Part shown: positions 4,995-32,164 of the stretch, piece by piece
Layout of the letters: every line of letters starts with the position of its first letter
Numbering within the stretch: position 1 is the stretch's first letter
Source of the DNA: Propionispora sp. 2/2-37
GTDB taxonomy: Bacteria > Bacillota > Negativicutes > Propionisporales > Propionisporaceae
Reading direction: 5' to 3'
Length of the DNA: 64,000 nucleotides
Assembly (NCBI RefSeq): GCF_001298735.1
Contig: NZ_CYSP01000014.1
Span: 62,001-126,000, forward strand
Translations under genes and position numbers: made by a program
Notes under the pieces: generated by a model
Told to the model about the DNA's origin: nothing
The model's database searches: none
The model's input: the letters and a program-made list of their open reading frames with translations, nothing else

Positions 4995-5029
4995 AATTGC
5001 AGCAGTAGTAAAGTGAGTGATTGGTACGA

Positions 5030-5062
5030 CAAAACCCTCCCTGAACTTGCAAAGGGAGGGTT
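5030..5062 (-). terminator. Terminator, minus strand
   Basis: CCCTCCCT (5035-5042) pairs with AGGGAGGG (5053-5060). Read on the minus strand the stem is followed by TTTTGTC. It lies beyond the terminator at 5087-5117, so the leftward riboswitch transcript would meet two stops. Confidence 0.55.
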
Positions 5063-5086
5063 ACGCTATAAGAGGACTCAGTCCGA

Positions 5087-5117
5087 ATAAAAATCCCGGC
5101 ATAAATAATAGCCGGGA
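5087..5117 (-). terminator. Terminator of the leftward cobalamin riboswitch
   Basis: On the minus strand CCCGGC...GCCGGG is followed by ATTTTTATT. It is the likely expression platform of the riboswitch at 5160-5325. Confidence 0.65.
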
Positions 5118-5159
5118 AAAATGATTACTCTCATAATCGCCTTCCCATCGCTCGTGGGT

Positions 5160-5325
5160 CAAACGGTGACTTTTAAATAGGCAGTTCTTCTGACTTAGGG
5201 TCATTGCTTACCTGCGCCTTCCCGGGATATCCAGTGGCATTATGCAGGTTTGCTCTCCGTCACAGCGGCGGGACCGTGTTGGTTTTACACCAAACTTCCC
5301 TATTAAGCCCGTAGGGCACCTATTT
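5160..5325 (-). promoter_or_regulatory. Adenosylcobalamin riboswitch, orphan, leftward
   Basis: Read on the minus strand the sequence shows the cobalamin aptamer signatures in order: AGGTGCC, GGGCTTAATAGGGAAG, GGTG..AAACC, CGGTCCCGCCGCTGTGA, AATGCCACTGG, GGGAAGGCGCAGGTAAGCAA and CAGAAGAACTGCCT. A promoter precedes it and two terminators follow. No leftward gene lies between it and the convergent cluster ending at 4954, so it regulates nothing visible here. Confidence 0.85.
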
Positions 5326-5360
5326 CGATCATATGCAATTGTATTTTCTAAATTGCAATC

Positions 5361-5390
5361 ATAATAGCACTTTTGTTTATTGAATGTCAA
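5361..5390 (-). promoter_or_regulatory. Promoter of the leftward riboswitch
   Basis: On the minus strand TTGACA (5390-5385) and TATTAT (5366-5361) are separated by 18 bases. The rightward promoter at 5524 has the same two hexamers and spacing. Confidence 0.65.
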
Positions 5391-5523: not shown

Positions 5524-5553
5524 TTGACACATCATTACAAAAAATGCTATTAT
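5524..5553 (+). promoter_or_regulatory. Promoter of the rightward cobalamin riboswitch
   Basis: TTGACA (5524-5529), an 18-base spacer and TATTAT (5548-5553) lie 50 bases ahead of the aptamer. Confidence 0.7.
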
Positions 5554-5602
5554 GAAACGAATAATGGAGTATTAACCTTTCAGGATAATTAAATAGCGTT
5601 AA

Positions 5603-5795
5603 GATAGGTGCCCGCAAGGGCTTAATAGGGAAGACCGGTGTAACGCCGGCGCGGTCCCGCCACTGTAATAGGGAGCGAATCCAAAGTATGCCACTGAGAC
5701 ACGCGTCTTGGGAAGGTTTGGACAAGCGATGATCTAGAGCCAGGAGAACTGCCTGTCTGTCAATCACCGTTTTACCTACGAGCGATAGGGAGGGG
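5603..5795 (+). promoter_or_regulatory. Adenosylcobalamin riboswitch upstream of porin/Nif-like cluster
   Basis: The cobalamin aptamer motifs appear in order: ATAGGTGCCC, GGGCTTAATAGGGAAG, CCGGTGTAACGCCGG, CGGTCCCGCCACTGTAATAGGG, TATGCCACTGAGAC, TTGGGAAGGTTTGGACAAGCG and GAGCCAGGAGAACTGCCT. It would switch expression of the downstream genes off at high adenosylcobalamin through the terminators at 5827-5907. Confidence 0.9.
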
Positions 5796-5826
5796 GTTAA
5801 GTACATACATGTTGTATTGTATTTCT

Positions 5827-5907
5827 TCCCGGCGTTTTGCGCCGGGATTTTTTAATACAACAAGGGGTACTCTTTCTATCTCCCGCCGATGGCCGGGAGA
5901 TTTTTTT
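5827..5907 (+). terminator. Two consecutive intrinsic terminators
   Basis: First hairpin: CCCGGCG-TTTT-GCGCCGGG followed by ATTTTTT (5827-5853). Second hairpin: ATCTCCC...GGGAGAT followed by TTTTTTT (5878-5907). The first or both probably form the riboswitch expression platform; a double stop suggests tight control. Confidence 0.7.
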
Positions 5908-6063
5908 ATTTGTAGTAGGTATGGATGTTGTCCAGTTAAGGTGGAAGGTTTAAGAGAGGTGGTTATTGACACAAGAAGGGCGCTTACGAAAAACTGAAGT
6001 TACGTCTGTGGAAAATATGGCTTGTTGTAGCAGTATCAAGAAACAAGGGAGAGAAATAGCAGA

Positions 6064-7164
6064 ATGAAAAAGAGTGTTTTGTTGTTGACGGTGATGGTTG
6101 CCTTAGGGACAGGAGCCACGGCTTTTGCAGCGGAAAATGATTCTTTAACTGTAAATGGCGACATCAGGTTACGGTTTGATAAACAAACGAACTATAATCA
6201 ACCAGACTTTAACGCGAATAAATACCGTATCCGTTTAAATTTAGGATATAAGCTGAGCCCGGAATGGTCATTCAATACAAGGGTGGTAGCTGGTGATTCA
6301 CTGTTTGGAGATGCTCCGCCTAATGTCGATGACGTGCAGATTTCCGTTGCCAGCTTAACATACAAGCAACCGGACTGGAATGCTACGATTGGTCGCCAGG
6401 TGTTTAGTATGTTTGAAGGACTTGCGGTTAGCATGGATGATGGCCACACGCCTGGCGATGCTGGTTATCCAGCGGCGGGAAACCGCCCGGATGGTGGTAA
6501 CGCAAAGAATTTCCCGTCTTTACAAGGGGCTAAATTCCAAAACAAAATTGGTAAAACAAACGTGACTTCCTTTTATGGGAATTTAAACGCTCGTACTGAC
6601 GATGGCGCGAATTACAATGTAAAAGGGATTGCGGCTATTGGACCGGTTGGCGCTTTCAAAGTCGGGGGAATGGTCTATACTACCGATTCTTATGTATCTG
6701 CTGCTGATGTAAGCAAGTATGGTGTGAAAAACGGCAGCAAAACGGGTTATTCCGTGACAGCCAACACGAAATTATTCAATAATTATTTATATACCGGCGT
6801 TGAGTATATCTGGGGTCTTGCCGATACGCACGATAAAGCCTATAAACTGATTGCTAAGACTCCGGAAACAAAAAAGGTCGGCGATATGCAGTATGCGGTC
6901 GAGTATCGAAATATAGAGCAAAATGCGCTGGACTATAACTCTTGCACGAATACGGCGCGTGGAATATCGACGATGCGTACCAAAAATATTAATATCGGCG
7001 ACTTTACCTACTGGGCGCTTAGCGCCAAGCGCCAGTTAACTCCCGAGCTAACAGCAACGTTATTCTATGAAAAATATAATCCGCAAAACCATGGGAAAAC
7101 AACCCCGTCAAGCGCACAAGTGGAAGATCAGGTCTATCGTCTGCAATTAGATTACAAATTCTAA
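6064..7164 (+). CDS. Outer-membrane beta-barrel porin-like protein
   Basis: The 366-residue protein starts with a signal peptide (MKKSVLLLTVMVALGTGATAFA, cleavage probably before AEN) and continues with repeated amphipathic strands rich in Tyr, Asn and Gly, such as INGDIRLRF-, YRIRLNLGY- and SWSFNTRVV-like segments. It ends in LQLDYKF, whose terminal Phe is the outer-membrane insertion signal. It resembles the putative porins of Negativicutes. It stands first behind the cobalamin riboswitch, so it may pass corrinoids or related tetrapyrroles or metal complexes across the outer membrane. Substrate is inferred from context only. Confidence 0.8.
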   Translation: MKKSVLLLTVMVALGTGATAFAAENDSLTVNGDIRLRFDKQTNYNQPDFNANKYRIRLNLGYKLSPEWSFNTRVVAGDSLFGDAPPNVDDVQISVASLTYKQPDWNATIGRQVFSMFEGLAVSMDDGHTPGDAGYPAAGNRPDGGNAKNFPSLQGAKFQNKIGKTNVTSFYGNLNARTDDGANYNVKGIAAIGPVGAFKVGGMVYTTDSYVSAADVSKYGVKNGSKTGYSVTANTKLFNNYLYTGVEYIWGLADTHDKAYKLIAKTPETKKVGDMQYAVEYRNIEQNALDYNSCTNTARGISTMRTKNINIGDFTYWALSAKRQLTPELTATLFYEKYNPQNHGKTTPSSAQVEDQVYRLQLDYKF

Positions 7165-7280
7165 CGGGAAATTACCGGATGTAAACGTGTAATTTTTACA
7201 AGCGAAAATTTCTAGTTGATGCGTAGTTTGCGTTGTCAGTGATATTGTTTGTACGCAATGAATTCCGGCTGCAGTGGGGG

Positions 7281-7315
7281 TTGCCAAACGGCTGACTGTT
7301 GCAGCCGTTTGGCAA
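7281..7315 (+). promoter_or_regulatory. Perfect 14-bp hairpin just upstream of the nifH-like gene
   Basis: TTGCCAAACGGCTG (7281-7294) and CAGCCGTTTGGCAA (7302-7315) form a perfect stem with a 7-base loop. No U-run follows; instead GAAAGGA starts 3 bases later. It looks like an mRNA-processing or stabilising hairpin, or a protein or sRNA target, rather than a terminator. Confidence 0.6.
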
Positions 7316-7330
7316 TAGAAAGGAATGTGC

Positions 7331-8185
7331 ATGAATCCACAAAATGAGAAAGACTGTTTAAAGATTGCGTTTTATGGCAAAGGCGGAATTGGCAAATCCA
7401 CAGTTTCCGCCAATGTTTCCGCAGCGCTGGCGATCCAAGGCTGTAAGACTTTACATATCGGATGCGATCCGAAGGCGGATTCCGCACGCTGCCTGGTGGG
7501 GCGTAAAATTCCTACCGTGTTGCAACAATTGCAGATAAAACCAGAGGGGATTGACAGGAACGATATTGTTTTTCCGGGTTTTGGCGGTGTTGACTGCATC
7601 GAGGCGGGAGGGCCTGAGGCTGGCATTGGCTGCGCCGGTAGGGGGATCATCACCATGATGGAGGAATTGAAGTACCTGGAGCTCTGGCGGGAGGAATGGG
7701 ACGCTGTTATCTATGACGTGCTGGGCGATGTTGTGTGTGGCGGCTTTTCAGTTCCGATGCGCGAACGATATGCAGATACCGTTTATATTGTGACATCAGC
7801 GGAGTTTATGTCGCTATATGCTGCCAATAACATCATGAAAGCGATTAGCAGAAGCCAGGGGGCACGGTCCGTGACGCTGGGGGGATTAATTCACAATTGC
7901 AGAAACGGTGAGTCGAAGCGGGCGGCAGTGGAACAATTTGCTCTATTGACGGGTACTCAGGTAGTAGCTGAAGTCCCGTTCAGCCGGGAAATAACCCTGG
8001 CGGAACTGGCAGGCAAGACTGTGCTGGAAAAGTATCCGGATTCAGAAGCCGCTGGTTTCTTTAAAGAACTGGCGGGGGTCATTGCTAAACATCAGGGTCA
8101 AACGCACATAAGAGCGCTGAATGATGATGAACTGGAAACATTCAGTCACTATATGCTTGATCTGGAATTGGAAAAGCATAAATAG
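7331..8185 (+). CDS. NifH/BchL/CfbC-like iron protein (nitrogenase-like reductase ATPase)
   Basis: The 284-residue product is a dimeric [4Fe-4S] P-loop ATPase of the NifH superfamily, which feeds electrons to component-1-type partners. Visible features are Walker A GKGGIGKST (residues 16-24), GCDPKADS (44-51), the cluster ligands Cys101 in GIGCAGRG and Cys136 in DVVCGGFSVP, and the NifH-type Arg104. ATG 7331 is preferred over ATG 7325 because the GAAAGGA site abuts the latter. The component-1-like genes follow directly. There are no nifENB-type assembly genes, so it is not a classical nitrogenase. The substrate is unknown; a tetrapyrrole or metal-ligand role is inferred from the cobalamin riboswitch. 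Confidence 0.85.
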   Translation: MNPQNEKDCLKIAFYGKGGIGKSTVSANVSAALAIQGCKTLHIGCDPKADSARCLVGRKIPTVLQQLQIKPEGIDRNDIVFPGFGGVDCIEAGGPEAGIGCAGRGIITMMEELKYLELWREEWDAVIYDVLGDVVCGGFSVPMRERYADTVYIVTSAEFMSLYAANNIMKAISRSQGARSVTLGGLIHNCRNGESKRAAVEQFALLTGTQVVAEVPFSREITLAELAGKTVLEKYPDSEAAGFFKELAGVIAKHQGQTHIRALNDDELETFSHYMLDLELEKHK

Positions 8186-8206
8186 CGGGGCCGGGAATGG
8201 GAGGAA

Positions 8207-9457
8207 ATGAAATTGTCTTGTGCGGGTTATAAACAGGGAAGCAACAGTGTTGAAAAAATCAGTCTTTCGGCTGTGACAGATACAATACCGCTTGATAGCT
8301 TTTTTGACCGGGGCATAGCGGATGACGACTGTGGAGAGTTGGTTAATCTGGCTTTGGCTGTGCCGGGCATTGACGTAGTAGCGGCCGGTCCTGCATCCTG
8401 TTCACGGGTGCTATACTTCAGAGCTGCGAAAAAAAGCTTGCAAGAACGCTTATTTTTGCTCCCCATATCCAGCAATGATTTTACTGCCGGCAATCATCTG
8501 CAAAATTTGGAAGAATCGCTTACAGACCTGGCGGCTTCGCGCCGATCAAGAGCGATCATTGTGTATGTTACCTGTGCCGATATTCTTGCAGGCACTGATT
8601 TTGCCAGTATAACCGAACGCGTAGAATGTCAACACGGGATACCGGTGAAGGTCTTTGAGCGGGGGCCGCTTTCCCGGCGACGGACGCTGCCTAAAGAACG
8701 CCTGTGTGATATTTTTATTGATTTGTTGCAACGAGGCAATCGGAGCGGAAGCAATAACTGCATTCAATTGTTGGGAGATGCAGGGAAGCTTGCTGAAACT
8801 TCCGGACTAAGAAAAATGCTTATGCACTACTGTTCCGACGGGGAAATCAGAGAATTTGCCGCGCTGGACTCTTACGAACAATTTGAGGAAATGACAACAG
8901 GTAAACTGAACATTGCCTTAGATCGTTTTGGTTATGACATGGCAGTGGGCATACAGAAAAAATGGAACATACCTTTCGTATTTCTGCCTGCCTGCTACAA
9001 TATGAAAGAGATTAAAGGCAGCTATGGGGCATTGATGGAGGCGCTACATACAACCTGGGATTTCAGCCAGGATTCGAAAGCGTATCATCAGTTGGCGGCA
9101 CAAACTGCTGCAACATTAGCGGGCAAACAAATTGCGGTGGGGATTGGAGCAAGGTCTTTCGAACTCGCCTATGCTTTGATGTTGGCTGGCTTTTCTGTTT
9201 CTACCATATTTGCGGATATCGTGAATAAAAACGATAGGGCGTACATCAATGCGCTTCTTGCCATAGGAAGCCAGGCGCAGGTATATCTGATTTCAAACGT
9301 GACCGGCGAAACACAGGCGGGCGGGTTTACTGAAATCGATGTCGCCATTGGCGAAAAAGCAGCGTTTTACTGTGCGAAAGCAAAAGAAATTCTGGTGAGT
9401 GCCGACTATCGTTTCGGTTATGAGGGAATCACGGAAATTATGGAGGCGATGAGATGA
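8207..9457 (+). CDS. Nitrogenase component-1-like protein, NifD/BchN-type
   Basis: The 416-residue protein belongs to the oxidoreductase/nitrogenase component 1 superfamily. Three Cys residues fit the N-terminal cluster ligands: Cys42 (DDCGEL), Cys65 (GPASC) and Cys123 (VTCADILAGTDF). Their spacing (23 and 58) is like BchN-type proteins. The middle contains FVFLPACYNMKEIKGSYGAL, the usual P..G...T-like segment, and the last third has a Rossmann-type repeat (GKQIAVGIGARSFELAYAL). It overlaps the next component-1 gene by 4 bases (ATGA), implying a complex made in equal amounts. Reaction and substrate are unknown. Confidence 0.8.
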   Translation: MKLSCAGYKQGSNSVEKISLSAVTDTIPLDSFFDRGIADDDCGELVNLALAVPGIDVVAAGPASCSRVLYFRAAKKSLQERLFLLPISSNDFTAGNHLQNLEESLTDLAASRRSRAIIVYVTCADILAGTDFASITERVECQHGIPVKVFERGPLSRRRTLPKERLCDIFIDLLQRGNRSGSNNCIQLLGDAGKLAETSGLRKMLMHYCSDGEIREFAALDSYEQFEEMTTGKLNIALDRFGYDMAVGIQKKWNIPFVFLPACYNMKEIKGSYGALMEALHTTWDFSQDSKAYHQLAAQTAATLAGKQIAVGIGARSFELAYALMLAGFSVSTIFADIVNKNDRAYINALLAIGSQAQVYLISNVTGETQAGGFTEIDVAIGEKAAFYCAKAKEILVSADYRFGYEGITEIMEAMR

Positions 9458-10653
9458 CAATGAAATTAACTCGCCTTCCTTCGCTGGCAAGCGACTATTC
9501 AGGCGCATGTTCGGTTCTGTATGCGATGCAGGCGCTTACCCTTTTGTACTCGCCAGGCGGATGCAGCAGCGCAATCATCGAATGCGATGAGATCAGGGAT
9601 TTGCGGCAGACCTTGTTTTTCTGTTCCAAGCTGGGGGAGTTGGAAGCCGTCATGGGCGCGGCGGATGAATTCCTGCTGCAGGCACAAACTCTTTGGGCGC
9701 ACAACCGCCAGACGGAATTTACCGCCATTATTGGTACGCCTGTACCGGCGTTGACCGGGATCGACATTGGGGCAGTTGCCGATGAGTTGAGCCGGCAGAC
9801 AGGCTTGCCGGCTATGGCGCTCTCTACGGAGGGATTCAGGGACTACTACTCCGGTGTTCATCAGACGCTGTTGGACTTGGGGAAGCGTTTTCTGGAGAAA
9901 CGGGAGAAAAAGAATAACCAGGTCAATATCATCGGGTATACGCCGCTCAGTCTTGGCAGCCCGGCGCATCTAGCTGAACTGATAGATGAACTGGAAGCGT
10001 GTGGTCTTACCATCAACGGTTCGCCGCTGGCAAAGAAGAATTTGGGCGACTTTAAGAACATGTCCGCCGCCGCGTTGAATATTGTCGTATCGCATGAAGG
10101 CGCGGGGCTGGCTCAATATATGCAGCAAGAATATGCAATTCCTTACGTTTTACATGTGCCAATAGGAATGTGGGGTATGCGGCGGTTGTTTAAAACATTG
10201 GAGGCGGTGACAGACATCTCGCTCGGCCGTACAAGCCGGAACCAATATGACCAAACTGGCAAGGCACTGTCGGCACGACGCGCCGTGGTGATCGGCGAAC
10301 CGCTGTTTGCTTCTTGTATAGCCGCCTGTTTGCAAAATGATTTTGGGCTTGCCTCTGTTGAACCAGTCAGCCTGATAAAAACCGATAGGCGTATGAAAAG
10401 TGTCTATCAAGAAGAATCGCTTTCCAGTGTCCGCTTTTTTACATGCGAGCATTCACTGGCTCAGTGGCTAGGGGAAGGGCAGCCGGATATAGTTATTGGG
10501 GACCCTTTGTATCAAACACTGGTACGCCAAAAGAATATCCAGTATGTGCCGCTGCCGCATGTCGGCTTGAGCGGTTCAATGCACGCTGATTTGAATTATG
10601 AGTTCATTGGTAAGAAAGGCTATGATTATTTAGCAGGATTTATCGGGTCATGA
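9454..10653 (+). CDS. Nitrogenase component-1-like protein, NifK/BchB-type
   Basis: The 399-residue partner subunit starts MTMKLTRLPSLASDYSGACS. Cys19 (SDYSGAC) and Cys37 (SPGGCS) match the first two NifK cluster ligands. The third is missing: the place of the usual TxC...GDD reads GTPVPALTGID, with Pro96 where Cys is expected. Extra Cys44 and Cys57 might substitute. The C-terminal Rossmann-like region includes ARRAVVIGEPLFASCIAACL and ends PHVGLSGSMHADLNYEFIGKKGYDYLA, a NifK-type end. Translation is coupled to the NifD-like gene (ATGA overlap). Confidence 0.8.
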   Translation: MTMKLTRLPSLASDYSGACSVLYAMQALTLLYSPGGCSSAIIECDEIRDLRQTLFFCSKLGELEAVMGAADEFLLQAQTLWAHNRQTEFTAIIGTPVPALTGIDIGAVADELSRQTGLPAMALSTEGFRDYYSGVHQTLLDLGKRFLEKREKKNNQVNIIGYTPLSLGSPAHLAELIDELEACGLTINGSPLAKKNLGDFKNMSAAALNIVVSHEGAGLAQYMQQEYAIPYVLHVPIGMWGMRRLFKTLEAVTDISLGRTSRNQYDQTGKALSARRAVVIGEPLFASCIAACLQNDFGLASVEPVSLIKTDRRMKSVYQEESLSSVRFFTCEHSLAQWLGEGQPDIVIGDPLYQTLVRQKNIQYVPLPHVGLSGSMHADLNYEFIGKKGYDYLAGFIGS

Positions 10654-10683
10654 CATTCAAGTAACATAACGGAGGGGATTTTT

Positions 10684-11802
10684 ATGCTGGAGCATCGTAA
10701 AAAATGGTTGCAAGGGGTAGCACTGCTGTTGGCTGTGTTCTTTATGTTAAGTCTCGCAGGCTGTCAATCCGGGGGGAGCGGAAAGAAACCGCCAACCGGA
10801 CAAACGTCTGAAACAAAAATTGTCACCGACTTAGTGGGAAACCAAGTGAAACTCAAGGCTAATGTGGAAAAAATCGCCGTTGTGCCTGTTCCTTGGGCTA
10901 CGATTGTTTATGCGGTAGATGGGACGGGTAAAAAAATCGCTGGCATGCATCCGTCGGCGATGAAGGCCTATCAGAGTAACATATTGAAGGCTATGGCACC
11001 GGAAATGGCTAACGCGAATTCGACGTTTGTAGACAACAATTTCAACGTGAATTATGAAGAAGTCGCCAAGCTGAAGCCGGATGTGGTCGTTATCTGGGAT
11101 TATCAGCCGGAGATTGGCAAAAAGCTGGCAGAACTCGGCATTCCGTCTGTAGCGATCAAATATGGCACGCTTGAGGATGTACAGAAAGGCATCAAGCTGG
11201 TCGGGGAAATCATTAATCAGCAAGAGCGGGCCAATGCGCTGATTCAGTATCATCAGGATACAAACGGCTATCTCAAGTCCAAGGAGAGCGCACTGGCGGG
11301 CAAGAACAAGCCTAAAGTGTTATATTTACGGGATGAGCAACTGCAAGTCGCGGTAGGCGACTCGGTGAACCGAATCATGATTGAAACGGCAGGCGGTACA
11401 AATGTCGCTAATGAGGGTAGCGGCCAATGGTCAAAAATAACCATGGAGCAGGTTATGGCGTCGAACCCAGATGTCATTGTTATCAGTAATTTCTCCAATG
11501 TGTTGCCGGAAGATTTGTACACGAATAAGTTTCCCGGGCAGGATTGGAGTAAAATTGACGCCGTAAAAAATAAACGAGTGTATAAAGCGCCGATGGGAAT
11601 TTATCGCTGGGATGCACCCTGCGTGGAAACGCCTTTAATGATAAAGTGGCTCGGCAAAGTTCTTCAGCCGGCAGTTTTCAACGATTACGACATGAGGGCT
11701 GATCTGAAAAGCTTTTACCAGACATTCTTCAACTATAAGCTCAGTGATGCGGAACTTGATCAAATCCTAAACAGTAAGCAGAACCCTGGCCTGAAAATCT
11801 AA
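10684..11802 (+). CDS. ABC transporter substrate-binding lipoprotein (BtuF/FepB type)
   Basis: The 372-residue protein has a lipoprotein signal with lipobox LSLAGC (Cys at about residue 22) and the two-lobed Peripla_BP_2 fold: TDLVGNQVKLKANVEKIAVVP at the start, NYEEVAKLKPDVVVIW in lobe 1, and TMEQVMASNPDVIVISNFS in lobe 2. This family binds cobalamin, haem, siderophores or other metal complexes. ATG 10684 follows GGAGGGG, 30 bases after the NifK-like gene, so uptake and reduction are probably expressed together. The cobalamin riboswitch favours a corrinoid-type ligand, but ligand identity cannot be read from sequence. Confidence 0.85.
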   Translation: MLEHRKKWLQGVALLLAVFFMLSLAGCQSGGSGKKPPTGQTSETKIVTDLVGNQVKLKANVEKIAVVPVPWATIVYAVDGTGKKIAGMHPSAMKAYQSNILKAMAPEMANANSTFVDNNFNVNYEEVAKLKPDVVVIWDYQPEIGKKLAELGIPSVAIKYGTLEDVQKGIKLVGEIINQQERANALIQYHQDTNGYLKSKESALAGKNKPKVLYLRDEQLQVAVGDSVNRIMIETAGGTNVANEGSGQWSKITMEQVMASNPDVIVISNFSNVLPEDLYTNKFPGQDWSKIDAVKNKRVYKAPMGIYRWDAPCVETPLMIKWLGKVLQPAVFNDYDMRADLKSFYQTFFNYKLSDAELDQILNSKQNPGLKI

Positions 11803-11874
11803 CACTAAAGAGTGTGATTGATGAATAAATAAGGTCAGTTGTTGTTTTGATTGGAGGAGCGAGGGAAGCGAAGC

Positions 11875-12888
11875 ATGATGTGTAAACAACAGAATTTGAA
11901 GTTTGTGTGGATGGCTGTATTGGCTGTGCTGCTGATTGCCTTTTTCGTATCTCTTTTTGGGGGCCGTTATGTAATTCCTCCCCATGAGGTCGGCAGCATA
12001 CTGCTTGATGGAATGCGCGGTGAAGAAGGGGACGGCATGGCGTTTTCCGTTGTCTGGAATCTCCGGCTGCCACGGACCTTGTTGAATAGTTTTGTCGGTG
12101 CGGGACTGGCTGTTGCCGGAGCAGCGTTCCAGGGGATTTTTAGAAATCCCCTGGTCAGCCCTGATGTGCTGGGCGTCAGTTCGGGAGCGGCCTTTGGGGC
12201 GGCGTTCGGTATCTTGCTCTCAGGAATGAATCATCTTGCTACAGCTATGGCGCTCTTTTTTGGCATTGTGAGTGTTTTTATGACCTATACGCTTTCCAAG
12301 CTGCGCGGCGAATCGTCTACGTTGTCCCTGGTGCTGTCCGGCATGATCATTTCTGCGGTATTCAGCGCACTCATCTCTTTGATTAAATACGTCGCCGATC
12401 CCTATGACAAGCTGCCAGCTATTACGTATTGGCTGATGGGCAGCTTTGCCAGCGCCTCGTACAGCAATTTACAATTGGTCGGGGTTCCCATTTTACTGGG
12501 GACGATTGCGCTGCTCATGCTGAGGTGGCGTATCAACATTCTGTCATTGGGGGATGAAGATGCCTATTCTTTGGGAGTTAATCCAGTAAAGACCCGGCTG
12601 GTTATTATTGTCATGGCGACGCTGATTACCGCCGCCTGTGTGACCGTTACGGGTGTGATCGGCTGGGTCGGTTTGGTCATACCGCATATCTGCCGTATGC
12701 TGAGCGGAGTGGATCATAAAAATCTGCTGCCTGTTTCCTGTGTTGTCGGGGCAGCGTTTATGATTCTTGTTGATCTGATGGCCCGGACGGTAACTGCGGC
12801 GGAAATCCCCATTGGCATATTGACAGCCCTGGTCGGTGCGCCGTTTTTTGCCTTACTATTTAAGCAAGCGAAAGGTGATTGGCAATGA
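11875..12888 (+). CDS. FecCD/BtuC-type ABC permease
   Basis: The protein (337 residues from ATG 11875) has 9-10 hydrophobic segments and typical BtuC-family motifs: NLRLPRTL (residues about 62-69), GAGLAVAGAAFQGIFRNPLVSPDVLGVSSGAAFG, and the coupling region GVIGWVGLVIPHICRMLSGVDHKNLLP. It forms the inner-membrane channel with the ATPase gene that it overlaps by 4 bases. A TTG at 11851 is an alternative start but gives a charged, atypical extension. Confidence 0.9.
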   Translation: MMCKQQNLKFVWMAVLAVLLIAFFVSLFGGRYVIPPHEVGSILLDGMRGEEGDGMAFSVVWNLRLPRTLLNSFVGAGLAVAGAAFQGIFRNPLVSPDVLGVSSGAAFGAAFGILLSGMNHLATAMALFFGIVSVFMTYTLSKLRGESSTLSLVLSGMIISAVFSALISLIKYVADPYDKLPAITYWLMGSFASASYSNLQLVGVPILLGTIALLMLRWRINILSLGDEDAYSLGVNPVKTRLVIIVMATLITAACVTVTGVIGWVGLVIPHICRMLSGVDHKNLLPVSCVVGAAFMILVDLMARTVTAAEIPIGILTALVGAPFFALLFKQAKGDWQ

Positions 12889-13700
12889 TACTGGAAGTGA
12901 AGCACGGCTATTTCGGATATACAAAAGACAGTGACATACTGCGGGATATCTCTTTTGCTCTTGGCGAACAAGAGATTATGACCATACTCGGACCCAATGG
13001 TATTGGCAAAACGACGATGTTAAAGTGTATGACAGGGATATTGCAATGGACCCAGGGGCAGACGCTGATCAACGGAATCCCTATGGGAACTTCGCGGGAA
13101 GCACAAAAACATTATCCTATCGGGTATGTGCCGCAGGCCCACAGTCTTTCTTTTCCCTATACCGTCAGAGAAGTAGTAACCATGGGCCGCGCACGTCATA
13201 TTGGCGTTTGCTCCGTGCCCTCCCGGCATGACAAGGAAACGGTGGATAAGGCAATGGACCAGGTAGGTATAGGCTCTATTCAGGATAAGCCATGCACACA
13301 ATTAAGCGGCGGGCAATTGCAACTGGTCTTTATTGCGAGGGCTCTAGCCGGTGAGCCAAAGGTGCTGGTGCTTGATGAACCCGAGTCTCATCTTGACTTT
13401 AAAAACCAGTTTATGATACTGCATCTTATTAAGACGCTGGTAAAGGAACGTGGTATATCCTGCATTATGAATACCCATTATCCGGAACATGCGTTGCGTC
13501 TGTCGGATACGACGCTGCTGCTTGGCAAAAATTCGTATCTGTTCGGAAGAACGCAGGAGATTATTACCGAACAGCGGGTTAAAGAATATTTTGATATCGA
13601 GGCTAAAATTTTGTCGGTTCCCTATCATGATGAGAGTATCAAAGCTTTTGTTGTGCTAGAAAGCTTTGATCGTGCAGAAGAAGCATACAGTAGTTCTTAA
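12885..13700 (+). CDS. ABC transporter ATPase (BtuD/FecE type)
   Basis: The 271-residue ATPase carries Walker A GPNGIGKTT, the Q-loop VPQAH, the signature LSGGQLQL, Walker B VLVLDEPESHLD and the H-loop NTHYPEH. ATG 12885 overlaps the permease stop (ATGA). It ends the cluster that begins with the porin. The signature has LQL in place of the more usual QQR/QR. A terminator follows at 13709-13744. Confidence 0.9.
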   Translation: MILEVKHGYFGYTKDSDILRDISFALGEQEIMTILGPNGIGKTTMLKCMTGILQWTQGQTLINGIPMGTSREAQKHYPIGYVPQAHSLSFPYTVREVVTMGRARHIGVCSVPSRHDKETVDKAMDQVGIGSIQDKPCTQLSGGQLQLVFIARALAGEPKVLVLDEPESHLDFKNQFMILHLIKTLVKERGISCIMNTHYPEHALRLSDTTLLLGKNSYLFGRTQEIITEQRVKEYFDIEAKILSVPYHDESIKAFVVLESFDRAEEAYSSS

Positions 13701-13708
13701 CAATTTTT

Positions 13709-13744
13709 GCTCGCGATTGTATTTCGCGGGCTTTGCTTTTTTGT
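13709..13744 (+). terminator. Terminator of the Nif-like/ABC cluster
   Basis: GCTCGCGA...TTCGCGGGC (13709-13731) is followed by TTTGCTTTTTTG. Confidence 0.65.
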
Positions 13745-15148: not shown

Positions 15149-16780
15149 ATGAGTAAACAAAAACTGGAGCTAACCTGGGTTGGTAAAGAGGAACAGCCAC
15201 GACTGGAACCTCGCATTTTGCTGGAAGACCCGGAAAAATCCTATCATGCAAAGTTTCGGATAAGTGATAACGATATTTTTGATAACCGGCTGATTTTTGG
15301 AGACAACCTTTTGGCGCTGAAAGCTCTGGAACAGGAGTATACGGGTAAAGTGAAATGTGTGTTTATTGACCCACCCTATAACACGGGAAGTGCCTTTGAG
15401 CATTACGACGACGGGGTCGAGCACTCACTCTGGCTAAGTATGATGAAAAATAGGCTTCAATTGTTACATACTTTATTGGCAAAAGATGGGTCAATTTGGA
15501 TTACTGTTGATGATAATGAAGCCCATTATTTAAAAGTGTTATGTGATGAAATCTTTGGCCGTCAAAACTTCGTAGCAAATTGTATTTGGCAAAAGGTGTA
15601 TAGTGAAAGAATGGATGCTAGCGGATTTAGTACAAGTCACGATCATATATTGGTTTATAGAAAATCAGACGCTTTTCAAGTGAAACAGGTACCCAAAGAA
15701 CAAAATCAGCAACAATTTAACTTTTTTGATTCATTTGCTAATAAATATTATCGGCGCCGATCTTTACGTAAAGAAGGATCCGAGTCATTACGAACTGATC
15801 GGCCCTCCATGTGGTTCCCAATTGAGGCCCCGGATGGCTCACAAGTCTGGCCTATAAAGCCTGATGGGACTGAAGGACGTTGGCGTTGGAAAAGAGAGAA
15901 TGTAGAAGAAAAGAAGAATGAACTAGAATTTATTGATAGAGACGGACGTTGGGAAATTTACGTAAAACAGTATTTAGAAGAGAACCCAACACGCCCTCCT
16001 GGTACGATATGGATGCAAGATGAAGTGGGTCACAATCATGAAGCTAAGTTGGAGGTAAAAGTATTTAATAGCGATTCAGTTTTTGGTACTCCAAAACCTG
16101 AAAGACTTATTAAACGTGTATTGGAGCTGTGTACCGAGGAACGTGACCTCGTATTGGACTCCTTTGCCGGCTCCGGTACCACCGGCGCAGTTGCCCATAA
16201 AATGGGCCGACGCTGGATCATGATTGAACTGGGAGAACATTGCCACACCCATATCATACCGCGCCTGCAAAAAGTGATTGACGGCGCCGATCAAGGCGGC
16301 ATATCAAAGACTGTCAACTGGCAAGGCGGCGGGGGATTCCGTTATTATAAACTGGCTCCCAGCCTGTTGCAAAAGGACAAGTACGGTAATTGGATCATTA
16401 GCAAGGAATATAATGCCGAGATGCTGGCAGAGGCGATGTGCAAGCACGAAGGCTTTACGTACGCTCCTAATGAGACAGTATTCTGGAAACAAGGGCAGTC
16501 GACAGAACATGATTTTATTTATACGACCACCGTTCCGGTCACGGCGGCGTTGTTGGAAACAATCGCTGATCAAATGGGCGGCCGGGAAACATTACTGATT
16601 TGCTGCACCGCGTTTCTGTGCCGGGAAGAAGACTATCCCCAGATTACGTTGAAACGGATTCCTGCTGCGGTACTGGCCCGCTGTGAATTTGGCCGCGATG
16701 ATTACAGTTTGCAGGTCAGTCAGCTGGAATACCAGGCAGAAACCGGTCAGACTGAATTGTGGGGTGGAGAAGATGAATGA
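15149..16780 (+). CDS. mod: Type III restriction-modification methyltransferase (Mod)
   Basis: The 543-residue enzyme methylates adenine (N6) in a short asymmetric site and also supplies specificity to the restriction partner. Motif IV DPPYNTGS lies near residue 74 and the AdoMet motif I (DSFAGSGTTGAV) near 337; this order is that of beta-class type III Mod proteins, with the variable target-recognition region between them. Full length for the family, intact. Its last 8 bases overlap res. Confidence 0.92.
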   Translation: MSKQKLELTWVGKEEQPRLEPRILLEDPEKSYHAKFRISDNDIFDNRLIFGDNLLALKALEQEYTGKVKCVFIDPPYNTGSAFEHYDDGVEHSLWLSMMKNRLQLLHTLLAKDGSIWITVDDNEAHYLKVLCDEIFGRQNFVANCIWQKVYSERMDASGFSTSHDHILVYRKSDAFQVKQVPKEQNQQQFNFFDSFANKYYRRRSLRKEGSESLRTDRPSMWFPIEAPDGSQVWPIKPDGTEGRWRWKRENVEEKKNELEFIDRDGRWEIYVKQYLEENPTRPPGTIWMQDEVGHNHEAKLEVKVFNSDSVFGTPKPERLIKRVLELCTEERDLVLDSFAGSGTTGAVAHKMGRRWIMIELGEHCHTHIIPRLQKVIDGADQGGISKTVNWQGGGGFRYYKLAPSLLQKDKYGNWIISKEYNAEMLAEAMCKHEGFTYAPNETVFWKQGQSTEHDFIYTTTVPVTAALLETIADQMGGRETLLICCTAFLCREEDYPQITLKRIPAAVLARCEFGRDDYSLQVSQLEYQAETGQTELWGGEDE

Positions 16781-19460
16781 GAAGTTAGTTCGATCCATTA
16801 GTGCCCGTATGAGTCTTAGAACACCGCAGGCAGATTCATTAGGCATATTGGCAGATGTTGCGGATACAGTAACATTGAATAAGACGACGGACGTAATGGC
16901 GGCACTGGAGCAGATCAAAGCGCTTTACCCTCATGTTGAAGAGTTTGAGCGGGAGTTTCCTTCACTTTGTTTCGCCCTGGCTACCGGGGTTGGCAAAACC
17001 CGTCTGATGGGGGCCTTTATTGCTTATTTGCATTTGGCCAAGGGTATGAATAATTTTTTTGTACTGGCCCCGAATTTAACCATTTACAATAAATTGATTA
17101 CCGATTTCACACCGAATACCCCCAAATACGTGTTTCAAGGCATTGGGGAGTTTGTCCATCAATATCCGAACATTATTACAGGTGATAACTACAATCAAGG
17201 GCAGCATCTGCAAAGCGGCGCATTATTTGAAGGCATCAACGTAAATATTTTTAACATATCCAAGATCAATTCGGAAGTCCGGGGCGGCAAAACGCCACGC
17301 ATCAAGCGGCTTTCGGAATACATCGGTCAGAGCTACTTCGATTATTTGGTATCTTTGCCTGATTTGACCTTGATTATGGATGAATCTCATCGTTACCGGG
17401 CGACAGCCGGTGTGCGGGTGCTTAACGAGCTTAAGCCGGTACTGGGACTGGAACTTACCGCCACACCCCAAGTGGAAGCGGGAGCAAAGTCGGTGCCCTT
17501 TAAAAATGTTATCTACAGCTATCCTTTATACCAGGCTATGCAGGACGGATTTGTCAAAGAACCGGCTGTTGCGACACGGGAAAACTTTAATGCCGATAAT
17601 TACACCGAGGGGCAGTTGGAACGGCTCAAACTGGAAGACGGCATTCTGGTGCATGAAGAGACTAAAGTAGAACTGGAAGTGTACGCCCGCGAGCATCATT
17701 TGCCGATTATCAAGCCCTTTGTACTTATTGTTGCGGTTGATACCGAACATGCTAATGCCTTGCTGGCAACGATGGAAGATGCCGCCTTTTTTGGCGGCAA
17801 GTATAAGGGTAAGGTGATTACAGTCCATTCCAATCAGCGCGGGGAGGAAAAAGACGAAACGATTGAGCAGCTCATGAGCGTGGAAAAGGCAGACAATCCG
17901 GTGGAGATTGTTATTCATGTCAACATGCTGAAAGAGGGCTGGGATGTCACTAATTTGTATACCATTATTCCCCTGCGGGCGGCCAATTCCCGGACTTTGG
18001 TGGAACAGTCCATCGGGCGGGGGTTGCGTTTGCCTTATGGCAAGCGCACAGGCGTGGAGGCAGTAGACCGCTTGACAATTATTGCTCACGATCATTTCCA
18101 GGCGATTATTGATGAGGCCCGTGATCCGAATTCAATTATCCGTCGGGGCGTATTGATCGGCCGGGATGTGGCCCGCGCAGCGAAGCAGGTGGTTACGGCC
18201 CAGCCGGTGATCTTACAAACCCTTGCCGGTACCGCGGGCAACGAAGCAAACAGTGCCGGCACTACCCGTCTGGTTGCAACACCACTGTTTCAGCCGGAGG
18301 AAACGCAAACGGCCCGGGTTGTGTACGATATTGTCCGGGAATTGGAACATTTGCCTTCATCCAGACAACTGGCCAAGGAAGAGGTTCGTCAATATATTGT
18401 AACAAGAGCGACGGACATAACCCATGCGTCACCACAGGGTACATTAATTGATGATCCCAATGCATTGACAATGGAGAAAGAGCAGTTGGAAAGTGTCGTG
18501 GAGCGAGTGGTACAAGCGGTCATAGAGAAAACCATCGACATTCCGCGTATTGTCGTTCAGCCCAAGGGAGAAGTAACCTGGGGATATGAAGATTTTGAAC
18601 TTGAAGTCAGCGGCATTCAATTGCAGCCGGTGTCGGAAGAATTGTTAGTCCAGCATTTACGTACCGATCAGCGCTTGCGTATTCATCTGGGCTCAGGTGT
18701 TACAGCCGTTCAAAGATTGGAAGATTATTTAGTATTTGCCCTAATGGAGTATCCTGATATATCTTACGATGACCACGCGGATTTGTTGTACAAGCTATCC
18801 GGAGAGGTGGTGCGGCATTTACAGTCGTATTTGTCTACTCCGGAAGATGTGGCCAATGTCCTGCAATATAACCAACAGCGACTGGCGGAACTCATTCACA
18901 TCCAGATGAAGCAGCACTATTATGAACGGGCTACCGAATATGAGGTGCGAATAATCAAAGGGTTTACTACGCTAAAGAGCAATACCTATGCTGCCAGCGA
19001 AGCCGTACGGGATTTTCGCCAGCCGCCGGCAGATTTGCGAAACATGAGCAGTCTGGTGTTTGGTGGTTTCCTGAAATGTTTGTACCCGCAGCAGAAATTT
19101 GATTCCGATGCCGAACGGCGCTTCGCCGTCATTTGTGAAAATGATCCATCAGTCAGGAAATGGTTCAAGCCCGCTAAAGGGCAATTGCAAATTCACTATC
19201 GCAGTGACCAATCCTATGAGCCGGATTTCGTTGTCGAAACAGAAGCTGAAAAAATCTTAGCGGAAACCAAGGCGGCCAATGAAGTAGCGTCGCAGGATGT
19301 GCAGGACAAAGCTGCTGCCGCTATACAGTGGTGTAAACATGCCACTGCCCATGAATTGGCGGTGGGTGGAAAACCGTGGCGGTATGTTCTTGTACCGCAT
19401 ACTAGTGTGCAGGAGAATATGACGATGCAAGGGTTAGCGGCAACGTTTACGGTGAAGTAA
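16773..19460 (+). CDS. res: Type III restriction endonuclease subunit (Res)
   Basis: The 895-residue protein is an SF2 helicase/translocase with a nuclease end. Visible motifs are ATGVGKTRLMG (Walker A, about residue 69), DESHRYRA (motif II, about 203), ELTATPQ (motif III, about 230), QSIGRGLRLPYG (motif VI, about 411), and the C-terminal nuclease PDFV...EKILAETKA (PD...ExK, about 816-832). ATG 16773 follows GGAGAAG and overlaps mod, so the two are co-translated; the ORF extends to 16683 only inside mod. It appears intact and needs Mod for DNA recognition. Confidence 0.92.
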   Translation: MNEKLVRSISARMSLRTPQADSLGILADVADTVTLNKTTDVMAALEQIKALYPHVEEFEREFPSLCFALATGVGKTRLMGAFIAYLHLAKGMNNFFVLAPNLTIYNKLITDFTPNTPKYVFQGIGEFVHQYPNIITGDNYNQGQHLQSGALFEGINVNIFNISKINSEVRGGKTPRIKRLSEYIGQSYFDYLVSLPDLTLIMDESHRYRATAGVRVLNELKPVLGLELTATPQVEAGAKSVPFKNVIYSYPLYQAMQDGFVKEPAVATRENFNADNYTEGQLERLKLEDGILVHEETKVELEVYAREHHLPIIKPFVLIVAVDTEHANALLATMEDAAFFGGKYKGKVITVHSNQRGEEKDETIEQLMSVEKADNPVEIVIHVNMLKEGWDVTNLYTIIPLRAANSRTLVEQSIGRGLRLPYGKRTGVEAVDRLTIIAHDHFQAIIDEARDPNSIIRRGVLIGRDVARAAKQVVTAQPVILQTLAGTAGNEANSAGTTRLVATPLFQPEETQTARVVYDIVRELEHLPSSRQLAKEEVRQYIVTRATDITHASPQGTLIDDPNALTMEKEQLESVVERVVQAVIEKTIDIPRIVVQPKGEVTWGYEDFELEVSGIQLQPVSEELLVQHLRTDQRLRIHLGSGVTAVQRLEDYLVFALMEYPDISYDDHADLLYKLSGEVVRHLQSYLSTPEDVANVLQYNQQRLAELIHIQMKQHYYERATEYEVRIIKGFTTLKSNTYAASEAVRDFRQPPADLRNMSSLVFGGFLKCLYPQQKFDSDAERRFAVICENDPSVRKWFKPAKGQLQIHYRSDQSYEPDFVVETEAEKILAETKAANEVASQDVQDKAAAAIQWCKHATAHELAVGGKPWRYVLVPHTSVQENMTMQGLAATFTVK

Positions 19461-21884: not shown

Positions 21885-22073
21885 ATGAGTGACAGCCCAT
21901 TGAGCGGAGACGCGATTGTCGATGCGTTCTTCGCGGAATTGCAGGACATGGAAGGCGTGGACAAGGCATTGGCGGAGAAGCTGTCGTCTTTGCATCGAGA
22001 CAAAAAGTTCACACAGAAGGAAGTGGCTGCTTCGCTGCAGTCGCTACGGGAGGAGGCGCTGAAAAATGGTTAA
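21885..22073 (+). CDS. Small helical protein of the GIY-YIG/ATPase module
   Basis: From ATG 21885 (behind GGAGGAGG) the 62-residue product reads MSDSPLSGDAIVDAFFAELQDMEGVDKALAEKLSSL..., predicted helical and acidic in its first half. It overlaps the ATPase gene by 8 bases. No family recognised; it could be an adaptor between nuclease and ATPase or an inhibitor. Confidence 0.6.
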   Translation: MSDSPLSGDAIVDAFFAELQDMEGVDKALAEKLSSLHRDKKFTQKEVAASLQSLREEALKNG

Positions 22074-24564
22074 GATTGAAGCCATGACCATCGCCGGCCT
22101 TCGCGGGGTGAAAGAGCCGATGACGTTGCAGTTCGGCGGCAAGTCAGCCATCGTCTACGGCGACAACGGCTCGGGCAAAAGCAGCCTCGCCGACGCGCTG
22201 GAGTGGTACTACTCCGATAAAATCGAGCGGCTAAGCTGTCAGGAGATCGGGAACAACGGCATTGACGCCTTGCGCAATGTGCGCATAGACAAGAACGAAA
22301 GGGCGTTTATGACGCTGGCCATGACCGATAAGTCCTTAAATGCGGAAAAGGAAATCATTTATAAGAGAGACAAACTGTCGGCGAAATTTAGCAACGCCGC
22401 TGCGGAGTTTCAAGAATACATCAAAGCTTCACAAGGGGAAAACTTTATTGTCCGGCACGACAAGCTGACGAAGTTCGTATTGGATACGAAAACCGATAAA
22501 TTAAAGTCGCTGTCTGAAATTATCGGCTTTTCTTCCGTTACAGCGGTGCGCGACACGCTGAAAAAGGCGGTCAACGAATTAGGCCGGGAAGTGAAAAACA
22601 AGGGATATGAAAACCAGATCGCCCAGTTTCAACGCAGCCTGATGGAGTACCTAGGGCGCAACGTTCCCGACGATGAAAAGTTCATTGAAGCCGTTCGCGA
22701 GCAGTTGGCCCCTTTTGGCTTAGGGGAGGCGGTCAAGAGCGTCGGCGACGCGCCGGCCGCGCTGGCGTCGCTGCAAGCGTCCGGCGACGAAAAGGCCATT
22801 GCCGCGTTGGCGGCGTTGGAGAAGATTAAAGGCGTCGCGGCGGGAATGGATGGGAAGATCGACTTGCTGGCCGCCGATTACCAGTCCTACGCTTCGCAAT
22901 TTGCGCAATTACTCGCCGACACGGGCAGCATTGCCAAGCTTGCGCTTTTGGATTTGCTGAAAGCCGGAGCTGGTGTACTTACGGGCGGCTCATACGCCGA
23001 GCCTAAATGCCCGTTGTGCCTGCAAGACAAAAATCTTAACGATTTGCAGAACGAATTGCAAGGCCGCATAGCCAGCCTGTCCGAACTGCAGGGCAAACTG
23101 TCGAAGCTGGAAGCGGGCCGAGCTAAGGCGAAGCAGTCGGCGGCAAGCTTGCGGCAAACGGTGGCCGCGCTGTTGAGCGACGTGGTTTTCAAAGGCGAAG
23201 AAAAGGTTTTCAGCGAGTTGAAAAAGCGATTGGAAGACTGGGCGGCGGGGATTACTCCCTTCGAAGTCGAAGCCGGCAAGGCTGTAATTGACGGCGCAGC
23301 TCCCGACGCTTCGCTTGCATTAGATAAAAAAGCGTTGGTGGAAATATCTAGACAGTGCGACGAACGCATCCAGGCGATTAGAGCGGCGGAGGCGGGAAAC
23401 GCCAGAACCGCCGCGCATACCAATCTTTCCATGGCTGTCAAGGCGTACGAACAGCTTACAGCCATGAAAAAAGAGCGCGACGTCATTGTCGAGCAACAGG
23501 CCGCGCTAAGCAAGATTTACGACGCGTTCGTCCAACGCCAGAAGGAAGGTCTGGAGGCTTTCCTCGCCGGCTTTTCGAACGCTATCGACGAATATTATGA
23601 ATATATGAATCCGGGAGAGCCCATAAAGGACTTGCGCATTGTGCCGATGACCGATGACGACGAATTGAAGGGCCTAGCCATTGAATATCAATTTAACGGC
23701 CAAGTGCTTGGCGCGCCGCTGCGCTGTTTCAGCGAATCGCATCTGAACTGCTTCGGGCTGGCGTTTTTTCTCGCCTCGGTCCGGGCGTTCAACCCGCGCA
23801 ACGGCTTCATTGTGTTGGATGACGTTATTTCGAGCTTTGACAGCAATCATCGGACGCGCTTCGCCAACTTGTTGATCGACAAGTTGAAAGATTATCAAAT
23901 CATCGCTTTGACCCATGAAAAACAATGGTTCGAGTATTTTTCCAAAGCGGTCAAGGGAAATCCGCATTGGGCGGTTAAAAATATTTATTGGGACGATAAC
24001 AAGGGTACGTACGCCGACGAGGCTCACGAGGACAAGCGCGCGAAGATCGAGACGCTGCTGGCCGCGGGCAAGCTGGAGGGGCTGGGCAACGAAATGCGCG
24101 TGTACCTGGAACAGTTTCTTAAAGAAATCGCCGAGCGGCTGGAAGTTCCGGTAAAATTTATGTTCAACGACAGAAACGAGGATAGGATGGCACCGGAATT
24201 ATTAGCCGCCTTGAAAGCTCGGGTCGATAAAAAAAGCAAAGTCGACTTCGCGGCGGCTCACGGCGACTTGTTCAACAGCTTGCAGCGTTCCAACTTTATT
24301 GGCAACAAAGGTTCGCACGACAGCTCCTACGTTCCGACAAGAGGCGATTTGAACGGGCTATGGGACGAGATTAAAAGTTTGGAAAACGCGCTGTATTGCA
24401 GCGGCTGCAAGCAGTCGATAGCGACGAGATATGCATCGGAGACGGAGAAAAAATATCTTGCCGCTGCGGGACTCTGTCTTACGCGTGGAAGTAAGCGCGT
24501 CGATCAGCTGCGCGCTTTATTGCGAACATGCAAAGTCCGCCTAAGAAAATGTATTTTCGTTTAA
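22066..24564 (+). CDS. SMC/RecF-like AAA ATPase with zinc-hook-like Cys pair
   Basis: The 832-residue protein starts MVKIEAMTIAGLRGVKEPMT and has Walker A GDNGSGKSS (residues 33-41), a long alpha-helical middle, a CPLC pair near residue 315 resembling a Rad50-type hook, and Walker B FIVLDDVISSFDSNHR near 580, followed by a D-loop-like LTHEKQW. A second CSGC lies near residue 783. This is an ABC-type SMC-like ATPase as used in OLD, Rad50, RloC and several defence systems. It overlaps the small upstream gene. The extreme C-terminus is basic and Cys-containing and may be slightly altered. Confidence 0.75.
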   Translation: MVKIEAMTIAGLRGVKEPMTLQFGGKSAIVYGDNGSGKSSLADALEWYYSDKIERLSCQEIGNNGIDALRNVRIDKNERAFMTLAMTDKSLNAEKEIIYKRDKLSAKFSNAAAEFQEYIKASQGENFIVRHDKLTKFVLDTKTDKLKSLSEIIGFSSVTAVRDTLKKAVNELGREVKNKGYENQIAQFQRSLMEYLGRNVPDDEKFIEAVREQLAPFGLGEAVKSVGDAPAALASLQASGDEKAIAALAALEKIKGVAAGMDGKIDLLAADYQSYASQFAQLLADTGSIAKLALLDLLKAGAGVLTGGSYAEPKCPLCLQDKNLNDLQNELQGRIASLSELQGKLSKLEAGRAKAKQSAASLRQTVAALLSDVVFKGEEKVFSELKKRLEDWAAGITPFEVEAGKAVIDGAAPDASLALDKKALVEISRQCDERIQAIRAAEAGNARTAAHTNLSMAVKAYEQLTAMKKERDVIVEQQAALSKIYDAFVQRQKEGLEAFLAGFSNAIDEYYEYMNPGEPIKDLRIVPMTDDDELKGLAIEYQFNGQVLGAPLRCFSESHLNCFGLAFFLASVRAFNPRNGFIVLDDVISSFDSNHRTRFANLLIDKLKDYQIIALTHEKQWFEYFSKAVKGNPHWAVKNIYWDDNKGTYADEAHEDKRAKIETLLAAGKLEGLGNEMRVYLEQFLKEIAERLEVPVKFMFNDRNEDRMAPELLAALKARVDKKSKVDFAAAHGDLFNSLQRSNFIGNKGSHDSSYVPTRGDLNGLWDEIKSLENALYCSGCKQSIATRYASETEKKYLAAAGLCLTRGSKRVDQLRALLRTCKVRLRKCIFV

Positions 24565-25690: not shown

Positions 25691-25885
25691 TGCCGGCGGC
25701 TTTTTTTGCCAATAGAATAACATAATTTAATGTATTTATAGTTTGCACCTAGAAGCCCAAAGGATAATTGTTGGTTAATATTGAAAATTAAATTTATATG
25801 TCGAATACAATAGAAAATATCAATAAATCAAGTCTTTTAGCATCTTGAGAAATTAACTTGAGAAATTAACTTATTGGAGGAAATA

Positions 25886-31008: not shown

Positions 31009-31093
31009 AAAAAGTTCTGTGACGGTCTGTGATGAAAATCCAGTATTATCAAGCATTCATGACATTTTGAAAACGAAAAATGATGGCGAAATT

Positions 31094-31141: not shown

Positions 31142-31204
31142 TAGATATTTCAAGGGTTTTACGAGGTTTTCGTAAAGCTCTTTTTTTCGTTTTCATAGCA
31201 GTTT

Positions 31205-31230
31205 TACAACAACCGTACAACAACGCGGCG
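31205..31230 (+). repeat. 26-bp direct repeat, right copy
   Basis: Identical to 30983-31008, 222 bp away and on the other side of the tRNA fragment. Confidence 0.7.
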
Positions 31231-32151: not shown

Positions 32152-32164
32152 TAAAGTAACGAAA

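Follow-up and report, generated by a model that had tools for sequence, protein, structure and literature searches.

What would a nitrogenase-like enzyme do when its genes stand behind a cobalamin riboswitch and in front of an importer of the vitamin B12 type? The question is raised by an operon at positions 5524–13731 of the 64,000-nucleotide (nt) stretch of Propionispora sp. 2/2-37 DNA analyzed here (the window; G000:C14:62001-126000), which encodes three nitrogenase-like proteins that we refer to as NflH, NflD, and NflK. From sequence comparison we tentatively propose that the operon serves corrinoid salvage, in which NflHDK would use ATP to reduce the corrinoid taken up, and that an orphan branch of nitrogenase-like proteins is likely to reduce B12-type molecules. 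Possible, if more doubtful, is the wider claim of a new nitrogenase-like class: an ATP-driven corrinoid reductase with its own importer and corrinoid-sensing RNA, carried as cargo of an integrative element, which would give the branch, recognized by 2012 at the latest, its first function.

The locus reads as one transcription unit on the plus strand, in which a promoter, a riboswitch, two terminators, seven genes, and a final terminator follow one another. A sigma-70-type promoter (5524–5553; TTGACA-18-TATTAT, extended −10 with TG before the −10, 11 of 12 consensus matches in a region where promoter-like sites overall are near their chance number) lies 36 nt ahead of the aptamer. The aptamer (5589–5770) is a full-length match to cobalamin riboswitch family RF00174, at 111.5 bits (E 4e-27) above a gathering score of 31.5 bits. 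The initial annotation had called it an adenosylcobalamin riboswitch; the cobalamin class stands, but the adenosyl is too specific, because the Rfam match leaves selectivity unsettled. Cobalamin riboswitches can respond broadly (PMC9600662). The terminator scan finds an intrinsic terminator as expression platform at 5827–5847 (hairpin region z-score −6.6) and a second terminator-like hairpin of the leader at 5878–5901, with a fold z-score of just −1.2.

The first gene encodes a porin-like outer-membrane beta-barrel protein of 366 amino acids (aa; 6064–7164, signal peptide by eye); this name is provisional, because the protein has neither a Pfam nor a PDB match. NflH, a NifH-like Fe protein (286 aa, 7325–8185; Fer4_NifH, 295 bits), is followed by the catalytic subunits NflD (NifD/E-like, 416 aa, 8207–9457; Oxidored_nitro, 62 bits) and NflK (NifK/N-like, 399 aa, 9454–10653; Oxidored_nitro, 126 bits), whose open reading frames (ORFs) overlap by 4 nt, in keeping with the translational coupling suggested at the outset. 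Then come a BtuF-type substrate-binding lipoprotein (372 aa, 10684–11802; Peripla_BP_2, 83 bits) that is a full-length homologue of solved structure 4OVK (456 bits), a BtuC-type FecCD permease (about 345 aa, start codon uncertain, 11851–12888; FecCD, 306 bits), and a BtuD-type ABC ATPase (about 273 aa, start codon uncertain, 12879–13700; ABC_tran, 114 bits). Thus ORFs, Pfam, and Rfam bear out the initial description of seven genes running in one direction behind a riboswitch. By Pfam the three-gene set of an importer is complete; the best NCBIfam models are BtuC for the permease and the corrinoid ABC ATPase for the ATPase, both under their cut-offs. The importer is predicted to be of BtuFCD type and a putative corrinoid carrier, like the vitamin B12 importer in its three parts behind a cobalamin riboswitch and unlike it in sharing one operon with nflHDK. 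A terminator follows btuD at 13709–13731 (terminator scan). Between the leader and btuD the scan calls only two weak terminator-like sites on the plus strand, both within nflK. The strong hairpin just 5′ of nflH (z −3.4) lacks a T-run, so that nothing seen at that point would stop transcription.

Where does NflHDK belong among nitrogenase-like enzymes? We built an Fe-protein tree and a joint D/K tree, the latter without CfbD, Dhaf_1539/1540, and Mlab_1039/1040, and with one long-branched reference each for NifDK, MarDK, BchNB, and BchYZ; we claim no deep branching order. All 21 D rows and all 21 K rows separate from these four references (100/99 each), placing NflHDK outside them as judged by sequence, and MarD and MarK group with NifD and NifK, apart from the Nfl family, for the single Mar reference and its long branches. 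Within the Nfl family, a riboswitch clade unites the window with G035, a Desulfosporosinus sp. (L047), G028 (L049), and G143 (L050); its support is 100/100 among the Fe proteins and 100/99 for both D and K. The wider family in which it nests occurs in Treponema, in Bacillota of Clostridia type, and in further members of the window's class. Among 398 sampled Bacillota genomes one falls in the riboswitch clade and about 18 in the wider family or its neighbors (a second search of the phylum drew the same genomes), a single-protein scan of genome contigs gave one locus only, and three of 350 genomes of the window's class carry members of the riboswitch clade, with a degraded fourth case (G456) recovered through its BtuF. 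Two other genomes of the window's genus are without the nfl operon.

The cluster ligands point the same way. In an alignment of 21 family members and four references, the Walker A motif of NflH and its two cluster cysteines, C103 and C138, are conserved throughout (21/21); for the window the cysteine pair had been noted in the initial annotation. The sole invariant cysteines found in the catalytic subunits are D-C65, D-C123, and K-C37, at positions alpha-C88, alpha-C154, and beta-C95 (21/21). Equally invariant is K-Asp14 (21/21), one residue off the beta-C70 position, where none of the four references has an aspartate; it is a natural candidate for a non-cysteine cluster ligand. At the beta-C153 position, where Nif and Mar carry cysteine, 20 of the 21 have proline (K-P96). 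The six P-cluster ligands of nitrogenase are thereby reduced to three, short of the nitrogenase set, and the FeMoco cysteine column (alpha-C275; NflD D239), which is cysteine in NifD and MarD, holds none in the 21 members. A nitrogenase or a reductase of sulfur compounds (Nif, Mar, or Isr type) is therefore hardly credible and already contradicted, by these ligands and by the separate clade, even though the fold family is common to all, the nearest solved Fe protein to NflH is MarH (9fmg chain D), and the genome is rich in true nitrogenases. MarHDK and IsrHDK share the Group IV-type gene set with NflHDK; however, Mar has a P-cluster and an [Fe8S9C] cluster (PMC12552129), the ligands for which are lacking in Nfl, and Isr carries a single cysteine in D and three in K (PMC11423573).

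The initial annotation had excluded nitrogen fixation because nifE, nifN, and nifB were missing. The exclusion holds, but for another reason: a full nif operon (nifH, D, K, E, N, and a NifB-like gene; names by eye) lies at C14:44980-53768, about 8 kb before the window start, so that the absence is true of the 64-kb window only and it is the protein sequences that argue against a nitrogenase. The genome gives 14 Oxidored_nitro matches on contigs C14, C15, and C25, further nitrogenase-type sets lying on the two contigs other than C14, and the two nfl proteins score far below the rest. These fourteen nitrogenase component-1 type genes over three contigs are an observation in their own right. We also considered whether Nfl is part of the nearby nif operon and rejected this, given its separate clade and separate genetic element.

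The reduced ligand set argues for one small Fe-S cluster in NflDK, like that of tetrapyrrole reductases. Tetrapyrroles are the substrates of the nitrogenase-like enzymes that have just one small cluster, namely DPOR, COR, and CfbCD. Such a description has been given for DPOR and CfbCD (PMC12552129). As in DPOR (BchLNB) and COR (BchXYZ), an Fe protein is combined with a heterodimer that has few cluster ligands, and K-Asp14 may serve as a ligand like the BchB aspartate; the DPOR cluster has three D-type cysteines and one K-type aspartate as ligands, and the two D cysteines, one K cysteine, and K-Asp14 of Nfl form an analogous set at other positions. Unlike DPOR and COR, the Nfl proteins come with an importer and a riboswitch. 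In L050, NflD lacks its C-terminal third (273 aa), and fused D-K proteins of other genomes retain the first NflD domain only, which suggests that any active site common to them is located chiefly within NflK and at the interface. AlphaFold models of NflD and NflK, made from two-sequence input, are poor (mean pLDDT 39.6 and 42.9).

Could the imported compound instead be a non-corrin tetrapyrrole (haem, a porphyrin, or a sirohydrochlorin-type compound) in which NflHDK, acting like DPOR or CfbCD, reduces a ring double bond so as to supply the corrin pathway? CfbC is the nearest curated Fe-protein model to NflH (324.9 bits, under the cut-off of 402), the DPOR B subunit is the best PDB match of the NflK profile after NifEN, and in L049 a ChaN haem-binding protein is encoded nearby. 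However, the genome has its own cbiDETFGHJ-like operon, including a precorrin-6 reductase (names by eye), and the Nfl proteins fall outside BchNB and BchYZ (100/99, on long Bch branches). CfbCD, the Ni-sirohydrochlorin a,c-diamide reductase, has a single homodimeric D subunit, whereas nflD and nflK are separate genes, and the CfbD model has no match among the operon proteins. We consider this alternative unlikely.

What points to a corrinoid is the genomic neighborhood. A cobalamin riboswitch stands directly ahead of nflH or its operon in three of three independent lineages with upstream DNA: the window and G035, the Desulfosporosinus locus L047 with two tandem copies, and L050, where a weak riboswitch (51 bits) lies next to nflH and a strong one ahead of the preceding EamA-type gene. 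L049, whose contig ends just past the TonB receptor gene, is not part of this count. This linkage holds at HDK identities down to about 38% and with differing intervening genes, and we estimate the chance of a riboswitch within 500 nt upstream at about 1 in 1000 each (10–11 riboswitches in a 4-Mb genome). Most of the wider family has BtuFCD-type genes next to nflHDK (window, L048, L050, L051, L053–L060, the degraded L063, and L107 of Treponema, a genus represented with this arrangement by Treponema saccharophilum); they are not found beside nflHDK in L052 or in the HypDEF-linked sets, nor in L047 and L049 before the contig ends. In G456 (L180 7618-11423), the riboswitch, an NflD fragment, and an intact BtuFCD (87–90%) remain, while the porin, nflH, and most of nflDK are deleted; this form is known from one draft genome, where an assembly error is possible. 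The importer of G456 thus retains corrinoid control alone. L049, which belongs to the riboswitch clade, encodes just upstream its TonB receptor, an SbmA/BacA-like ABC protein, and a ChaN haem-binding protein; the receptor matches CirA and BtuB in the PDB, mostly via the plug domain. Another group of the class has orthologues of the window BtuF (48–53%); their genes follow those for a TonB receptor and a fused short-NflD/NflK protein, and the five fused proteins beside such BtuFCD orthologues keep the same three cysteines and the aspartate. In these loci (L184–L188) the TonB receptor is siderophore-type and the sole full NifH is encoded elsewhere in the genomes; the fused protein may borrow this distant NifH.

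The same neighborhoods contain the points that favor a different cargo, namely a cobalt or nickel chelate or metallophore that would be imported and reduced by NflHDK to free the metal for cobalamin synthesis. Cobalt importers elsewhere are under cobalamin riboswitches (PMC3766115), BtuFCD-type transporters also carry siderophores, a NiCo riboswitch lies about 1.8 kb downstream of nflK in L047, and the receptor beside the fused D-K relatives is of the siderophore type. Metal chelates, however, rarely need ATP-driven electrons, and the small set of cluster ligands is like that of tetrapyrrole enzymes that reduce the ring, so that we regard metal release as improbable.

Sister nflHDK sets raise yet another explanation, that NflHDK helps in metallocofactor assembly and that the riboswitch reflects the importer only. 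Sets in the window's class (L062, L064, L067) and in other Bacillota (L054, L056) are tied to hydrogenase maturases: they surround HypF, HypD, HypE, HydF, and sigma-54 genes, or are interleaved with BtuCD, HydF, and HydE, the last above its cut-off. Dos Santos et al proposed cofactor assembly for such clades (PMC3464626), and HydE/HydF and HypD/E/F beside the sister sets agree with it. Within the window's clade we recognized no maturase inside or close to the riboswitch-linked loci, which makes this role there quite improbable. In L057 (4708-12524), nflHDK and BtuCDF stand behind a molybdenum-cofactor riboswitch with MoeA-like genes, and a cobalamin riboswitch lies 1 kb farther upstream.

How would the parts serve corrinoid salvage? 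At low intracellular corrinoid the riboswitch would let transcription through its terminators, as the aptamer-then-terminators layout implies from the usual behavior of this riboswitch family. The porin and the BtuFCD-type importer would take up external corrinoid, and NflHDK, with a single cluster, would reduce it with ATP-driven low-potential electrons from NflH; family knowledge suggests both the import by BtuFCD and the reduction by NflHDK. The likeliest reaction would bring the cobalt center from Co(III)/Co(II) to Co(I) with the axial ligand stripped, ring reduction being the second option. Cobalt rather than the ring is our chemical guess, made because the step from Co(II) to Co(I) needs a very low potential, which an ATP-driven donor can supply. 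A precedent for ATP-driven metal reduction in a tetrapyrrole is the nickel of F430, in the MCR activation complex (PMC12176620). Reduction would open otherwise unusable corrinoid states to adenosylation or remodeling. The conserved regulation and the importer that keeps its riboswitch after nflHDK loss suggest a corrinoid as the substrate, on which NflDK would then act. The initial idea of importing and reducing a corrinoid, tetrapyrrole, or metal complex fits the recurring riboswitch and importer linkage and the reduced Fe-S ligands; its extension to corrinoid remodeling has no specific support, as the remodeling enzyme CbiZ is encoded elsewhere in the genome with another importer.

Several observations weigh against corrinoid salvage. 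Cobalt transport is also found under cobalamin riboswitches, so co-regulation is no proof of a corrinoid substrate, and the importer falls short of the cut-offs of the BtuF, BtuC, and BtuD family models alike. In L047 the last 2.8 kb of the contig contain no BtuFCD. The riboswitch is missing from sister clades, some of which have HydE/HydF, HypDEF, or MoeA as neighbors, so the common chemistry of the family may not concern corrinoids. Finally, the need is not obvious in a genome with the de novo cbi operon, CobT, CbiZ, and extra TonB/BtuFCD sets, including importers and TonB receptors near or behind its other cobalamin riboswitches; the nfl operon would therefore be an accessory rather than the sole corrinoid route.

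Parts of this arrangement have been described before. Dos Santos et al (2012) reported transporter-linked and hydrogenase-maturase-linked nitrogenase-like genes in Firmicutes, noted a pattern of two plus one cysteines with a non-cysteine ligand guessed as in DPOR and none named, and mused about “cobalamin reduction” for other NflD homologues (PMC3464626). Their Group IV transporter-linked clades (Mlab_1039/1040, Dhaf_1539/1540) share with Nfl the alpha-C88 and alpha-C154 of D, the beta-C95 of K, an HDK set beside ABC transporter genes, the lack of FeMoco ligands, and relatives of which some have hydrogenase maturases. By their published description they include “Nif operon III” of Desulfitobacterium hafniense DCB-2 (Dhaf_1537-1545), one of three extra nifHDK sets that Kim et al (2012) found with transporter genes and thought may have other functions (PMC3306737). 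In contrast to our reading, these accounts mention no riboswitch and propose metal transport or cofactor assembly. The Nfl family may equal the nitrogenase-like “group VI” of Meheust et al, which is cited in PMC9391474 as putative tetrapyrrole genes, or one of the unassigned group IV subclusters. The initial annotation knew of no described system of this make-up, which is right for the riboswitch and the function and wrong for the transporter-linked genes with two plus one cysteines, noted in 2012 in both studies. In the open-licence papers searched, none joins “nitrogenase-like”, “cobalamin”, and “riboswitch” for such a system, the sole match being methyltransferase clusters; as far as these papers show, the conserved link to the riboswitch is new, and so are K-Asp14, the fused and the deleted variants, and the carriage on a mobile element. 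Several nitrogenase-like branches are without a function, and the conserved riboswitch gives one of them a specific and cheaply testable substrate hypothesis. Should it hold, ATP-driven electron transfer of the nitrogenase type would also operate in B12 chemistry, tying the metabolism of cobalamin to that of nitrogenase, chlorophyll, and F430; the operon itself would be a corrinoid-scavenging trait that moves horizontally.

The operon indeed lies within an integrative element of about 32.4 kb in tRNA-Arg(ACG), which covers window positions 1–31142 and has its left end about 1.2 kb before the window. This DNA (C14:60763-93142, window about −1236 to 31142) is 97.5–98% identical to the element of G035, with a more diverged stretch at about 13.8–16.1 kb; housekeeping DNA of the two genomes is 66–68% identical. 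In each genome the element occupies tRNA-Arg(ACG), where the 3′ end of the tRNA is duplicated and an integrase gene (by eye) marks the left end. By this comparison the nfl operon is recently transferred cargo, exchanged between bacterial families. Contamination from a G035-like organism was rejected, since the housekeeping DNA that shares the contig with the element is most similar to that of the window's own genus. The element also holds a DNA methyltransferase-like gene (15149–16780) and a helicase-like gene (16683–19460) that resemble a type III restriction system, an ATPase-like gene (22066–24564), and a gene for a 1259-aa protein (25874–29653), all by eye. An integrase-like ORF at 31092–32029, with DNA 87% like the left end of the element, appears to be what remains of a second related element in tandem.

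A second cobalamin riboswitch, overlooked by the initial annotation, diverges from the operon on the minus strand. Its RF00174 aptamer (5163–5338, 111 bits) lies behind a promoter at 5361–5390 (11 of 12 consensus matches) and ahead of two terminator-like hairpins (5028–5130; fold z-scores −3.9 and −3.8) that the terminator scan did not call. The ORF list of the window has no minus-strand ORF behind it, and it is possibly a corrinoid-responsive short RNA or the leftover of a lost gene. G035 carries an unusually large set of 31 cobalamin riboswitches in its 5-Mb genome. Farther along the window, three fluoride riboswitches stand within 2.7 kb on the plus strand (32158–34882).

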